IMG/VR virus record: IMGVR_UViG_3300009071_002060
Span: 1 to 64,000 of that record
Reading direction: 5' to 3' (one strand)
DNA: 64,000 bases
From: a virus
The translations under genes and the position numbers were made by a program. Every line of letters begins with the position of its first letter. The first letter of the stretch is position 1. Below the pieces are notes generated by a model. It did no database searches. It saw nothing but the letters and a program-made list of their open reading frames with translations, and had not been told where the DNA came from. This document shows, piece after piece, positions 34,891-51,204 of this stretch.

Positions 34891-35047
34891 TTGGATTAAA
34901 AACAGAGTAATGGAACGTACTTCATGGGACGGCGGCGCATTAATTGCAGTCGGACTAGTTGTGCTATTTCTTGGACCATTTGCAAAATGGGCGGCTTATG
35001 CGGCTATTGCTTATGGTGCTTGGACTATGTGGAAAAAAGAAGACTAA
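34883..35047 (+). CDS. Small two-helix membrane protein
   Basis: A 54-residue frame, ATG 34883 to TAA 35045-35047, overlapping the previous gene. An amphipathic start (MINWIKNRVMER) is followed by a hydrophobic helix (ALIAVGLVVLFLGP) and a second, Ala/Tyr-rich hydrophobic helix, ending KKED. It could be a holin-type or membrane-anchoring protein. Confidence 0.5.
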   Translation: MINWIKNRVMERTSWDGGALIAVGLVVLFLGPFAKWAAYAAIAYGAWTMWKKED

Positions 35048-35065
35048 TATCTTTCGCACATGGTT

Positions 35066-35100
35066 TATGGGGTTCCATCCCCGTACCGGCTAGAACCCGG
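35066..35100 (+). other. Two adjacent G/C-rich hairpins in a gene leader
   Basis: TATGGGG/CCCCGTA (35066-35072 and 35079-35085) and CCGG/CCGG (35086-35089 and 35097-35100) are stacked just ahead of the virion gene at 35129. Unusually G/C-rich for this genome; perhaps a leader that stabilises mRNA or pauses polymerase. Confidence 0.4.
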
Positions 35101-35128
35101 ATTGGACTACTATTATAGGAGAAAACAA

Positions 35129-35539
35129 ATGGGAAGACCACTAAATAAAAAGTTCTTTGGAACACCAACCCCAGCAGGAAATGAAATTAAAGTTCAGTTC
35201 CATAACGGAACAGGTTCTGTTGCTGGATGGATTATTAAACAGGTTGGAGCAAAACGCTTTAAAGTTACTGATGGTTCAGAAATTAAAGTCTGTTCATTGG
35301 TTGATAAAGCTTCAGCGGCTATTGCCGCAGGTGAAATGACTATCACTATCAATGATGGTGGTACGGCAAGACAAGTTACTAAGATTGCCGCTAAGAAAGT
35401 TACACTTGACACTGGTACAACAATTAACTGGGACTTTACAGGAACAGGTGATGTTGTCGAAATGGAAGAAGCTGGCGATGATGCTACTATTGACGCCATA
35501 GGCACAGACGAAGATGACTTCGAAGGTGATGACGTCTAA
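35129..35539 (+). CDS. Small virion protein, probably abundant
   Basis: A 136-residue beta-rich protein (MGRPLNKKFFG..., then many Thr/Val/Ile strands) with an acidic tail (EDDFEGDDV). It has a strong ribosome site (AGGAGA) and ends at a strong terminator (35566), as for the gene at 31759. A structural role is inferred from this setting. Confidence 0.55.
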   Translation: MGRPLNKKFFGTPTPAGNEIKVQFHNGTGSVAGWIIKQVGAKRFKVTDGSEIKVCSLVDKASAAIAAGEMTITINDGGTARQVTKIAAKKVTLDTGTTINWDFTGTGDVVEMEEAGDDATIDAIGTDEDDFEGDDV

Positions 35540-48258: not shown

Positions 48259-48634
48259 CAATTTTGTTACACCACCAGATTTTGTGGAAGATGATTACCA
48301 TAGTGTTCTTCTAATAGATCCTGTTGAATCGCAAGTAATGGACATTTCATTACTATGTAAAAGTGTTGGGTCAGATTTTAATGTCTATGTATACCTTGAT
48401 CATTACAATGACTATAAATGGTTAGAGGAAGCATTTAACAGAAGTGATTCAGTACTTATTAATACAGTACCGAATTCTAGTTCAAAAGTTAAGGATAAAC
48501 TAGTTGAACATCATAAATCACAACATTACGGTCCTAAACGTTTCTTTGATAACGATAGGCGTATTGAACTTCCAATTGAGTACTTTATAAACTATGTCAA
48601 AAAACATTCAACAAGCCAATATGCTGATTTGTAA
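48251..48634 (+). CDS. Protein of unknown function
   Basis: A 127-residue soluble protein, overlapping both neighbours (8 bases before, 41 bases after). No family recognised. The overlaps suggest translational coupling to clpX. Confidence 0.52.
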   Translation: MYSNFVTPPDFVEDDYHSVLLIDPVESQVMDISLLCKSVGSDFNVYVYLDHYNDYKWLEEAFNRSDSVLINTVPNSSSKVKDKLVEHHKSQHYGPKRFFDNDRRIELPIEYFINYVKKHSTSQYADL

Positions 48635-49847
48635 TTTTTGCGAGAAAGCAAAAAACGAAGTCAATAAACTTATAGTCGCAGATGGTGCGGCCATTTGTAA
48701 TGAATGTATAGAGACTTGCTCAGGTATTATCACTAACGAAAAGTATACCGCAAGGTACAAAAAGTCGGGTATTTTTAAGAGTCTTGACCCGCTAAGAGTT
48801 AAAAAATACCTCGATGAGTTCATCATTGGCCAGGATAGTGCAAAAGAAGCTATCAGTGTAGCAATTATAAATCATTATAAAAGACTGTTCTATAATACAA
48901 CAATTGAGTTAGAAAAAAGCAATGTTCTATTACACGGTCCAACTGGTAATGGTAAAACAATGCTGGCTAGAATTGTGGCTAAGTTTTTAGAAGTGCCTTT
49001 TGTAGTATGTGATGCTACTACACTTACTGAAGCAGGTTATATAGGCGAGGACTCAAGCAGTGTCATTGAACGATTATTAATGGCCGCTGATGGTGACCTT
49101 GAACATGCAGAACGTGGCATTATTTTTATTGACGAGATTGACAAGATTGGTCGTGTAGCAGATGCACACGGAAGTGTTGGGCGTGACGTCGGTGGCGAAG
49201 GTGTGCAACAAAGTTTACTAAAAATACTTGAAGGCGGAGATATAAAAGTATCTTATAACGACGGAAATCATAAAGAAGAAATTGACTTTAATACCAAAGA
49301 TGTACTTTTTATTGCCGCAGGTGCTTTTCCTGATTTACAAAAGATAGCATCTAATAATGCAAATAAAGGATCAACAATAGGATTCGCATCAGCGATTCCG
49401 GATCCTAATCAAGTAGTAACTCCAAAGATAACAGATTTTGTGCAATACGGAATGATACCTGAGTTCATGGGACGGTTTCCTATTACAATACAAGTTAAAG
49501 AATTAACTGACCACGAAATGCGTCGAGTGCTAACTGAGCCTAGAAACAATCTTATCAAACAATATTTTTTCTATTTTGATGTTGACGGTGTTAAGTTAGA
49601 ATTTAGCCATGATGCTATTGATGCTGTTATAGAATTAACTGCTAAAGAAAAAATTGGAGCCAGAGGACTTCGTGCAATCATTGAAAAAGTATTGCACCCA
49701 CATATGTTCAATTTGAGAAATTTGAAAAATAGTAACGTAAAGAAACTAACTATTACAGCCGACACAGTATTAAAACAACAACAACCAATACTTGAATACC
49801 ACGACGAAAGGGGAATAGAAAATGACACAATTGAGCTTGGATCTTAG
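48594..49847 (+). CDS. clpX: ClpX-like AAA+ unfoldase
   Basis: A 417-residue ClpX with an N-terminal four-Cys zinc domain (C13, C16, C35, C38), Walker A GPTGNGKT (about 116), Walker B IIFIDEIDK, pore-1 loop GYIG (about 148; GYVG in E. coli) and the IGF loop (about 262) that docks on ClpP. The second pore loop has GNHK where E. coli has GRKH, the site for ssrA-tag recognition. With the IGF motif kept, it could couple to host ClpP but choose other substrates. ClpX is rare in phages to my knowledge. Confidence 0.88.
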   Translation: MSKNIQQANMLICNFCEKAKNEVNKLIVADGAAICNECIETCSGIITNEKYTARYKKSGIFKSLDPLRVKKYLDEFIIGQDSAKEAISVAIINHYKRLFYNTTIELEKSNVLLHGPTGNGKTMLARIVAKFLEVPFVVCDATTLTEAGYIGEDSSSVIERLLMAADGDLEHAERGIIFIDEIDKIGRVADAHGSVGRDVGGEGVQQSLLKILEGGDIKVSYNDGNHKEEIDFNTKDVLFIAAGAFPDLQKIASNNANKGSTIGFASAIPDPNQVVTPKITDFVQYGMIPEFMGRFPITIQVKELTDHEMRRVLTEPRNNLIKQYFFYFDVDGVKLEFSHDAIDAVIELTAKEKIGARGLRAIIEKVLHPHMFNLRNLKNSNVKKLTITADTVLKQQQPILEYHDERGIENDTIELGS

Positions 49848-50256: not shown

Positions 50257-50285
50257 TTGACTTTTAACGTAAGAGTAACTATATT
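50257..50285 (+). promoter_or_regulatory. sigma70 promoter of hsp20
   Basis: TTGACT (50257-50262), 17-base spacer, TATATT (50280-50285). Transcription should start near 50292, giving a 58-base leader made of the two hairpins described next. Confidence 0.7.
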
Positions 50286-50291
50286 ATATAT

Positions 50292-50344
50292 GTAGGTGCC
50301 GATTAGCGGGCCTACTTACATTAATCTTGCTTAATAAAGGAGAT
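50292..50344 (+). ncRNA. ROSE-like RNA thermometer in the hsp20 leader
   Basis: Hairpin I: GTAGG (50292-50296) pairs with CCTAC (50311-50315), with more pairs inside. Hairpin II: AUCUUGCUU (50324-50332) pairs with the ribosome site AAGGAGAU (50337-50344) across an AAUA loop, with G50329 unpaired. The UUGCU against AGGA with one extra G is the defining feature of ROSE elements, which hide the ribosome site of small heat-shock genes at low temperature and open when warmed. ROSE elements are known in proteobacterial hsp20-type genes. Confidence 0.68.
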
Positions 50345-50349
50345 AGCAA

Positions 50350-50778
50350 ATGAATAGATTAACAACTCTCGACCTCAATAAACTCACCCCACATGCACTA
50401 GGTTTTGATAGCCTATTTGATGGACTGCTACGTCAAGTAGAACATGCTCCACAACAGGGGTTCCCACCTTATAACATTCGTCAAGATGAAAACAAGTTTC
50501 AAATTGAAATGGCTCTCGCTGGTGTAGAACTAGATGATCTTGATATTGAAACTGCTGAAGGAGTATTGACTATAGTTCATGATCCTAAATCAGATTCTGA
50601 CGAAGAAACAATGTTGCATAGAGGTATTGCAATTCGTAAATTTAAACGAAGTTTTACCCTTGCTGATGATGTACTAGTTAAAGGTGCCCGTATGAAGAAC
50701 GGTATGTTGTTCATTGAACTAGAGAAGATCATTCCTGAAGAAAAGATGCCCAAAAAGATTGCAATTTCTTCAAGCTAG
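50350..50778 (+). CDS. Hsp20-type small heat-shock protein
   Basis: A 142-residue alpha-crystallin-domain protein (EGVLTIVHDPK, RGIAIRKFKRSFTLADDV, GMLFIELEKIIPE are class-typical strands) ending KKIAISSS, without the usual C-terminal IxI motif in exact form. It holds unfolded proteins in an ATP-independent manner, perhaps stabilising phage or photosystem/envelope proteins in warm or oxidative stress. Promoter 50257; leader 50292. Confidence 0.87.
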   Translation: MNRLTTLDLNKLTPHALGFDSLFDGLLRQVEHAPQQGFPPYNIRQDENKFQIEMALAGVELDDLDIETAEGVLTIVHDPKSDSDEETMLHRGIAIRKFKRSFTLADDVLVKGARMKNGMLFIELEKIIPEEKMPKKIAISSS

Positions 50779-50886: not shown

Positions 50887-51204
50887 ATGACAGACGCACT
50901 ACCAGAACAAGAAGTTAAGAAGAAAACTAAAGCAAAAGAAAATCTTAGAGAGCCGGTGCGTTTTCGTGTAATTTACATCAACGATGAAGTTACCACAACT
51001 GAATTTGTTGTTGAAACATTGAAGACTATTTTTGATTATGATGAGCAACCAGCCGTTGCACTTACTCACAAAATACATCAAGATGGTCTTGCAACAGTAG
51101 CAGTATTACCTTATGAAATGGCTGAACAAAAAGGTGTTGAAGTTACAATACTAGCACGAAATCACGGTTTCCCTTTACAAATAAAGATTGAACCAGATCA
51201 ATGA
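50887..51204 (+). CDS. clpS: ClpS-like N-degron adaptor
   Basis: A 105-residue ClpS. The N-degron pocket has N32-D33 (E. coli N34-D35) and H64 (E. coli H66), while the gatekeeper Met (E. coli M40) is Thr here (T38). The typical NDDYTPMEFV appears as NDEVTTTEFV. ClpS delivers N-end-rule substrates to ClpA; a Thr gatekeeper may widen or shift the accepted N-terminal residues. It overlaps the next gene by 4 bases. Confidence 0.85.
   Translation: MTDALPEQEVKKKTKAKENLREPVRFRVIYINDEVTTTEFVVETLKTIFDYDEQPAVALTHKIHQDGLATVAVLPYEMAEQKGVEVTILARNHGFPLQIKIEPDQ

Follow-up and report, generated by a model that had tools for sequence, protein, structure and literature searches.

We found that the hsp20 gene of a virus is preceded by a 58-base RNA leader in the form of a ROSE thermometer, and that the same element is common in phages, where it also heads dnaK and groES genes. 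We regard it as likely that this short, two-hairpin ROSE-like leader controls phage hsp20 through a Shine–Dalgarno helix that would be loosened by heat. The DNA analysed here (the window) is a stretch of 64,000 nucleotides from a viral record of 116,711 bases, and its hsp20 locus contains the following features.

50257..50285, + strand: sigma-70-type host promoter candidate, TTGACT (50257–50262), 17 bases, TATATT (50280–50285)
50292..50349, + strand: whole 58-base ROSE-like leader, ending directly 5′ of the hsp20 AUG (50350)
50292..50315, + strand: hairpin 1, GUAGGU, bulged G (50298), CCG / CGG, GCCUAC (from the fold and relatives)
50324..50332, + strand: anti-Shine–Dalgarno arm of hairpin 2, AUCUU-G-CUU, with bulged G 50329 and UUGCU at 50327–50331 (from the sequence)
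between 50332 and 50337, + strand: loop of hairpin 2, AAUA (from the sequence)
50337..50344, + strand: Shine–Dalgarno arm of hairpin 2, AAGGAGAU (from the sequence)
50345..50349, + strand: AGCAA, able to pair with UUGCU, which would leave the Shine–Dalgarno site in a loop (from the fold)
50350..50778, + strand: hsp20, small heat-shock protein of 142 amino acids headed by the leader (Pfam HSP20)
50887..51204, + strand: clpS-like gene adjoining hsp20 (Pfam ClpS, 1e-21)

In the mechanism that we propose, the weak helix of hairpin 2, in which UUGCU faces AGGA around a single bulged G, would hide the hsp20 Shine–Dalgarno site and would loosen as the cell warms, letting ribosomes make more Hsp20, and hairpin 1 would stably cap the mRNA at its 5′ end. 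This control of hsp20 would be common to the phage lineage and to proteobacterial hsp20 genes, and many phages would carry their own copy of the element on each chaperone gene or operon, dnaK and groES included.

The original prediction described a 58-base hsp20 leader with two hairpins, which proved correct to the base when the leader is counted from 50292. As it also stated, the anti-Shine–Dalgarno arm of hairpin 2 faces the ribosome site with one extra G, G50329 being unpaired against AAGGAGAU, and the UUGCU/AGGA signature of ROSE elements, the phage setting and the link to hsp20 all hold in the sequence and in its relatives. ROSE-like thermometers, as defined in parts of two published accounts (PMC11182007, PMC4166951), pair the Shine–Dalgarno site with U(U/C)GCU in the terminal hairpin, carry a bulged G opposite that site, have two to four hairpins and head a small heat-shock gene. 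In the window, 50327–50331 lies against 50337–50344, G50329 is bulged, there are two hairpins, and the gene that follows matches Pfam PF00011 (HSP20) at 63.1 bits (cut-off 20.8, 2.8e-17). We rejected the fourU class for this leader, as the arm reads AUCUUGCUU and has no four consecutive U opposite the Shine–Dalgarno site. Two genes upstream of hsp20 lies a ClpX-like AAA+ protein with a ClpX zinc finger (48594–49847, +), and this gene forms a proteostasis neighbourhood with hsp20 and clpS in the window phage. Elsewhere in the window, a second conserved leader RNA was found: the Rfam freshwater-2 RNA (RF02980) matches at 35047–35131 (+) with 63.7 bits, above its cut-off of 49.9, and ends at an ATG at about 35130, so the listed open reading frame start at 35060 is probably too early.

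Taken singly, the window leader has an unremarkable fold that is no proof of an element: its z-score is only −1.6, and 16 of 200 shuffled sequences fold as well. At 37 °C and above, its minimum-energy form has UUGCU/AGCAA in place of hairpin 2. We rejected this alternative pairing as a general feature, as AGCAA or AGCAG stands at the position of 50345..50349 in only 8 of 104 leaders, window included. The Rfam search called for in the original prediction gave a divided answer: the ROSE model RF00435 aligned end to end with 50292–50354, with the unpaired position of hairpin 1 at the same place as in the window leader, and had the top score among eight weak Rfam matches there, but this score, 21.1 bits, is below the cut-off of 45. 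Freshwater-2 was also weak at the hsp20 leader (17.3 bits). Searched against the window's record, RF00435 had no match at E ≤ 0.001 and ROSE_3 (RF02523) had no match. Across 16 related loci, ROSE_3 matched one phage leader, that of Methylophilales phage Melnitz-3 (L034), whose 34.1 bits (E 0.003) are the best of any phage leader and below the curated cut-off of 43. In 7 of 20 phage records, ROSE_3 scored at E ≤ 3e-4 in positions also matched by our own model, R1 (see below), and none of the 20 reached the cut-off; only such strong matches were counted, as at E ≤ 10 ROSE_3 also matches all 14 control genomes.

The comparison with other phages was decisive. Similar hsp20 genes were found by tblastn in 498 of 50,697 phage records, and both hairpins are kept, by eye, in all seven leaders inspected (HTVC008M, HTVC103P, S-CRM01, Melnitz-3, Mosig, S-BM3 and ACG-2014b); the bulged G of hairpin 1 is likewise present in relatives by eye. 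U(U/C)GCU with GGA in register occurs in 200 of 218 hsp20 leaders, window included. These leaders, from viral contigs and phages, are at least 60 bases long and none was chosen by the motif; 8 hsp20 loci without a readable start and 5 with fewer than 60 bases upstream were dropped before counting. Because near-copies and a few repeated contigs exist among the rows (for example L020 and L160, or L001–L005, which have one leader in common), we also give the counts for unique leaders (136/149) and for clusters at 90% (112/121). By contrast, the motif was found in 2 of 705 control leaders, which are those of other genes with a GGA ribosome site at loci with hsp20. The control set includes loci fetched by a DNA pattern, and both motif-bearing controls are on such loci, one of them heading a phage dnaK (L070); on the remaining loci the count is 0 of 298. 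Among 120 representatives, 117 bear the motif and 115 of these have an upstream hairpin, 11 of which were judged misplaced, leaving 104 leaders for use.

Could the complementarity to the Shine–Dalgarno site be accidental? The weak single-sequence z-score would fit such an accident, as would the broad DNA pattern TTGCTT..AAGGAG, which is common in viral DNA: it stands directly upstream of hsp20 in 62 of 120 loci and is too common to be specific (these 120 were left out of the hsp20 count), the other 58 not being directly upstream of a recognised hsp20. Some of those 58 nevertheless precede dnaK, groES or small helper genes, and the control leaders, the covariation and the gene-specific placement all speak against chance, to which we give almost no credence. 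The element is common in phages, and its resemblance to ROSE is not a product of chance.

The 18 leaders that depart from the motif are of several kinds. In L020, L159 and L165, the element lies one small gene (65–74 amino acids) upstream of hsp20, and L022 and L160 have the same leader as L020. L169 and L183 carry UUGCA/UGGA, a compensating change, and L192, L215 and L217 carry UAGCU. Seven rows (L253–L260) have lost the bulged-G form and kept hairpin 1 and the complementarity; in this clade, CUGUCU faces AAGGAGG or AUGGAGG, and a G–A mismatch replaces the bulged G. In L181, neither a reading of the leader nor R1 found the element.

We built R1 on a seed alignment (A4) of 19 leaders, picked because their loops were of regular length and their arms aligned well. 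As the window leader belongs to this seed, its score of 64.4 bits is high by construction. At E ≤ 0.01, R1 matched 97 of 100 phage hsp20 loci, missing L181, L213 and L225; the 100 were taken from the 120 representatives, include 15 seeds and leave out the window and 19 representatives. Across all 116,711 bases of the viral record, the leader at 50292..50349 is the only R1 match at E ≤ 1, and at that threshold no second copy of the element was found in the window phage.

Covariation was measured on 102 R1 matches up to E 1, including five weak or second matches. Pairing was kept in 95.3% of cells compared with 77.3% in shuffled alignments, a level reached by none of 500 shuffles, and the covariation score was 0.453 compared with 0.128 when shuffled and at most 0.087 in slid controls. 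The original prediction would have been refuted by a lack of covariation in related leaders; instead, both partners vary in 10 of 16 pairs (7.4 expected; 1 of 500 shuffles), with 264 both-sided-change cells compared with 69.5 from shuffles. The proposed comparison of related phage hsp20 leaders thus turned up the helix-keeping changes that were looked for, mostly in hairpin 1, where 7 of 8 pairs change on both sides compared with 3 of 8 in the Shine–Dalgarno helix. In the seed alignment, double changes affect 6 of 9 pairs of hairpin 1 and 0 of 8 of the Shine–Dalgarno helix. When dnaK, groES, helper-gene and bacterial rows were added (A6, 121 rows), 4 of 8 pairs of the Shine–Dalgarno helix changed on both sides, pairing was kept in 94.9% of cells and the score was 0.512 compared with 0.178; the two lowest pairs of this helix are unpaired in 49 and 26 rows. 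All these alignments were fitted to the structure, and the counts lean towards it. With that qualification, the covariation supports both hairpins, hairpin 1 far more strongly.

The placement of hairpin 1 relative to promoters suggests where the mRNA would begin. The promoter candidate of the window has 10 of 12 consensus matches. TTGACW/TAWWWT pairs occur five times on the + strand of the window, this candidate included, and in a 1.6-kb region five sigma-70-like matches were found compared with 5.7 expected by chance, the leader candidate being the best of them. From the promoter spacing, transcription likely starts at about 50292. In 67 of the 104 usable leaders, the 40 bases upstream of hairpin 1 contain an 8-mer resembling a T4-type late promoter; in 57 of these 67 it sits 2–6 bases from the hairpin, and in 45 it is an exact TATAAATA. 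Of the remaining leaders, 9 have another −10-like box and 28 have neither. The + strand of the window has a single exact TATAAATA, far from the leader. With host-type and late-type promoters alike, the 5′ end of the mRNA would thus appear to lie at the base of hairpin 1. In several of the 28 leaders lacking a recognised promoter, a hairpin GGTGGTT...AACCACC is present; it abuts the element upstream of hairpin 1 in L187, L199, L202, L218, L290 and others, and may mark where the preceding mRNA ends.

The original prediction confined the element to hsp20 and was in that respect too narrow, for it is found also on phage dnaK and groES and on bacterial hsp20. R1 found a second strong element in 7 of 29 viral records searched (G013–G017, G020 and G021). 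Four loci (L451, L070, L454 and L455) hold dnaK–hsp20–clpS clusters with an element before dnaK and another before hsp20, HSP70 and ClpS being confirmed by Pfam in all four; in L457, the element heads a groES–groEL operon; and in L452, L453 and, weakly, L456, it heads genes of 77–92 amino acids elsewhere in the genome. We then examined phage DnaK relatives collected by protein, taking the best 80 of 578 among the first 600 candidate stretches. Within these best 80, the narrow motif is present in 77 of 78 readable dnaK leaders (52 of 53 unique), hsp20 and clpS lie downstream of dnaK in 75 of 80 loci, and 70 of 80 have the element on dnaK followed downstream by hsp20 with its own element and by clpS. 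Phage groES leaders carry the narrow motif in 15 of 21 cases (12 of 18 unique), and R1 matches upstream of groES in 15 of 21. The dnaK and groES sets each contain the query's own contig. The counts for dnaK, groES and bacterial leaders all refer to the narrow motif, as a wider one also matches 33 of the 705 controls. The terminase family PF03237 is present in 7 of 11 element-bearing records and also in 6 of 14 control genomes, which only supports the former being phages; the window's own record has no PF03237 match.

Small genes of 65–92 amino acids headed by the element (L452 379–713, L453 3169–3497, L020 2718–2995, L159 740–989 and L165 740–989) stand alone or just before hsp20 and look phasin-like by eye; in Pfam, L452 has a sub-threshold match to Phasin_2 (19.9 of 24.9 bits) and the others have nothing. 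Additional weak R1 matches (L458, L459, L460, L589–L591, L593 and L594) were dismissed as noise: no hsp20-, dnaK-, groES-, groEL- or clpS-like gene lies at the match in L589–L591, L593 and L594, nor, by eye, is there such a chaperone gene in L458–L460.

The presence of one element per chaperone gene, mostly in dnaK–hsp20–clpS order, suggests a phage chaperone regulon. Many large phages may carry a self-contained proteostasis regulon (hsp20, dnaK, groESL and helpers) with one ROSE-like RNA per gene or operon, such that one signal, heat or the loss of free Hsp20 to aggregates, would raise the chaperones translationally without a host heat-shock factor; we give this broader proposal an even chance of being right.

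The hsp20 leaders of marine bacteria resemble those of the phages. Among the 80 best bacterial hsp20 loci (SAR324, SAR86, PS1, Pelagibacteraceae, uncultured Alphaproteobacteria and others), 76 have the motif (49 of 53 unique) and 72 match R1 at E ≤ 0.1, strongly in alphaproteobacterial loci and at about 16–27 bits in most SAR324 and SAR86 loci. A few of the bacterial records (L364 and L375) may be phage contigs binned with bacteria. In four loci of SAR86 and other gammaproteobacteria (L354, L381, L407 and L415), two hairpins of the hairpin 1 type precede the Shine–Dalgarno hairpin by eye, and these leaders resemble longer ROSE elements. In the order of one uncultured alphaproteobacterium, which we judge to be SAR11-like, R1 matched 30 of 60 genomes, and 27 of the 30 fetched loci have hsp20 directly at the element, the 3 weakest lacking it. 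A broader sample at class level gave matches in 2 of 94 genomes, namely the centre genome's own hsp20 and one weak match without such a gene. R1 was tuned on phage leaders, and weak matches in these bacterial samples are lost to the strict filter. In bacterial dnaK leaders from the same two groups, the narrow motif was found in 0 of 44. Because these 44 bacterial dnaK genes lack the element, its placement on Hsp70 genes seems to be an innovation of phages. In the centre genome of the class-level sample, a gammaproteobacterial one (L595 1425–1984, −), CUUGCUA...UAGGAG stands before a peroxiredoxin gene (Redoxin, 113.2 bits) with a weak R1 match (21.1 bits); this gene may be a further bacterial target, and bacteria may not use the element on hsp20 alone.

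In an hsp20 tree with 120 rows from phages and 33 from bacteria, whose bootstrap is unsettled, six changes between phage and bacterium are needed, at least three of them forced by well-supported branches. Phage proteins including those of HTVC008M and Mosig pair with SAR11-like bacterial Hsp20 (98/81), and the window Hsp20 sits on a long branch. As reconstructed, the tree needs several host–phage exchanges, which could have run in either direction.

To what extent the leader would respond to temperature was examined by folding at a series of temperatures. When leaders were folded alone, the median unpaired fraction of the ribosome site in phages (n = 116) went from 0.10 at 10 °C to 0.22 at 37 °C, compared with 0.41 to 0.52 for the controls (n = 317), with p 2e-16 at the lower and 3e-15 at the higher temperature, and the rise with temperature was larger than in controls (p 3e-5). 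Photobacterium hsp20 leaders behaved similarly (L422 and L423, 0.13 and 0.11 at 5 °C, rising to 0.19 and 0.18 at 37 °C). When 12 coding bases were included, accessibility was not significantly different from that of controls from 5 to 42 °C (p 0.07–0.24; n = 120 compared with 250), differed at 50 °C (p 0.02) and had a temperature slope of 0.057 compared with 0.056 in controls; the window site was more open than the median, at 0.61 at 15 °C. With 30 coding bases, the phage median site was 0.44–0.68 open and bacterial leaders were 0.14–0.34 open. In the window, UUAAUCU at 50321–50327 in the anti-Shine–Dalgarno arm is complementary to AGAUUAA at 50356–50362 (hsp20 codons 3–5), a complementarity that is a possible reason why coding-inclusive folds open the ribosome site. 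The non-canonical pairs in ROSE helices lie outside the standard energy rules, and because of this the fold predictions are weak either way. Thus, modelled folding supports masking of the Shine–Dalgarno site in leader-only models, but not with coding sequence added. The ROSE form and the leader-only temperature steps favour the thermometer claim of the original prediction; coding-inclusive folds show no special response.

That last result would also fit a static brake, in which the helix would only reduce the translation of hsp20, or shield the 5′ end, with no temperature response in the host's range. We think this unlikely: a stronger helix would do for such a brake, yet the extra G and the weak U–G pair are kept in phage and bacterial hsp20, dnaK and groES leaders, and the best-studied relatives of this form are heat-responsive in the part of the literature consulted (PMC3669281). 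In the Pseudomonas ibpA leader, as described in part of that source, hairpin 2 melts between 25 and 42 °C and hairpin 1 stays closed, and removal of the extra G (G39) tightens repression and lowers expression (PMC3669281). By analogy with the Pseudomonas ibpA leaders, the phage leader should keep Hsp20 low in the cool and high in the warm; temperature sensing through heat opening of hairpin 2 thus remains our preferred reading of the phage leader.

It is also possible, though we consider it somewhat less than probable, that the leaders sense aggregation. Phage Hsp20 would then bind its own, dnaK and groES leaders and repress them until it is titrated away by proteins that unfold or aggregate, such as virion proteins in large amounts; heat would then be just one of the triggers, and such a sensor may act together with a thermometer. 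IbpA of E. coli, of Cedecea and of Vibrio is reported to use Arg93 to repress the thermometer leader of its own gene, and in E. coli the protein reduces translation of sigma-32 as well (PMC10474464). An aggregation sensor would explain why one element heads a chaperone set in phages, and by analogy the set of leaders might form a chaperone regulon read by free Hsp20. We looked for the relevant residues in 120 phage Hsp20s, transferring positions through an Enterobacter relative (L429) and the R93–R97–K98 spacing and using what we take to be the E. coli IbpA residue numbering for Arg93, Tyr34, Arg97 and Lys98. Arg93 is Arg in 108 of 120 (R96 in the window), Tyr34 is Tyr or Phe in 120 of 120 (F38) and Arg97 is Arg or Lys in 120 of 120 (R100). 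On the other hand, only 37 of 120 have Lys or Arg at Lys98 (Ser101 in the window), Arg93 is replaced in 12 of 120 by Lys, a change that abolishes activity in E. coli, and the conserved IbpA-type residues may be kept for chaperone work alone.

Under either signal, a conserved translational switch on hsp20, dnaK and groES would mean that phages control the timing of chaperone synthesis, presumably to their benefit during infection, and that they may carry their own small heat-shock control circuit. The leader offers a simple handle for asking whether the signal is temperature or protein aggregation. If the proposal is true, ROSE-like control extends to Hsp70 and chaperonin genes, with a bearing on how warming affects marine and freshwater infections. 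Hsp20 has been described as a cyanophage core gene, whose role may lie in host heat tolerance or in capsid scaffolding (PMC7674155), and in the main text of a study of cyanophage small heat-shock proteins, 'promoter', 'upstream' and 'RNA' are absent at word starts (PMC3827213). None of the open-access titles and abstract beginnings listed describes a phage-borne ROSE element.

Published phage RNA thermometers include lambda cIII, SP-beta blyA and the sigma-70 leader of a gut Caudoviricetes phage (PMC11182007). The gut-phage leader is of the fourU type (PMC11182007), as is SP-beta blyA (PMC10586365), and lambda cIII switches between two states and opens at lower temperatures (PMC4166951). These too are temperature-responsive phage leaders, but none of the three precedes a chaperone gene. 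In bacteria, ROSE-like elements upstream of ABC transporter genes likewise reach beyond small heat-shock genes, but not to chaperone genes (PMC11342760). The Rfam families ROSE (RF00435) and ROSE_3 (RF02523) have the same order of parts and the same Shine–Dalgarno helix, whereas the phage scores fall below the curated cut-offs; the bacterial hsp20 leaders of SAR324, SAR86, PS1, Pelagibacteraceae and Alphaproteobacteria have the same motif, whereas bacterial dnaK lacks it. The closest tested relative is the Pseudomonas ibpA leader, which, from the part of its description available, likewise has only two hairpins, with hairpin 2 on the Shine–Dalgarno site, one extra G and a small heat-shock gene downstream. 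The window leader, likened to it by description, differs in being borne by a phage, and in other phages the element is also on dnaK and groES. The element is ROSE-like by each sequence and structure feature tested, is not a listed Rfam member, is carried by phages and is extended to dnaK and groES.
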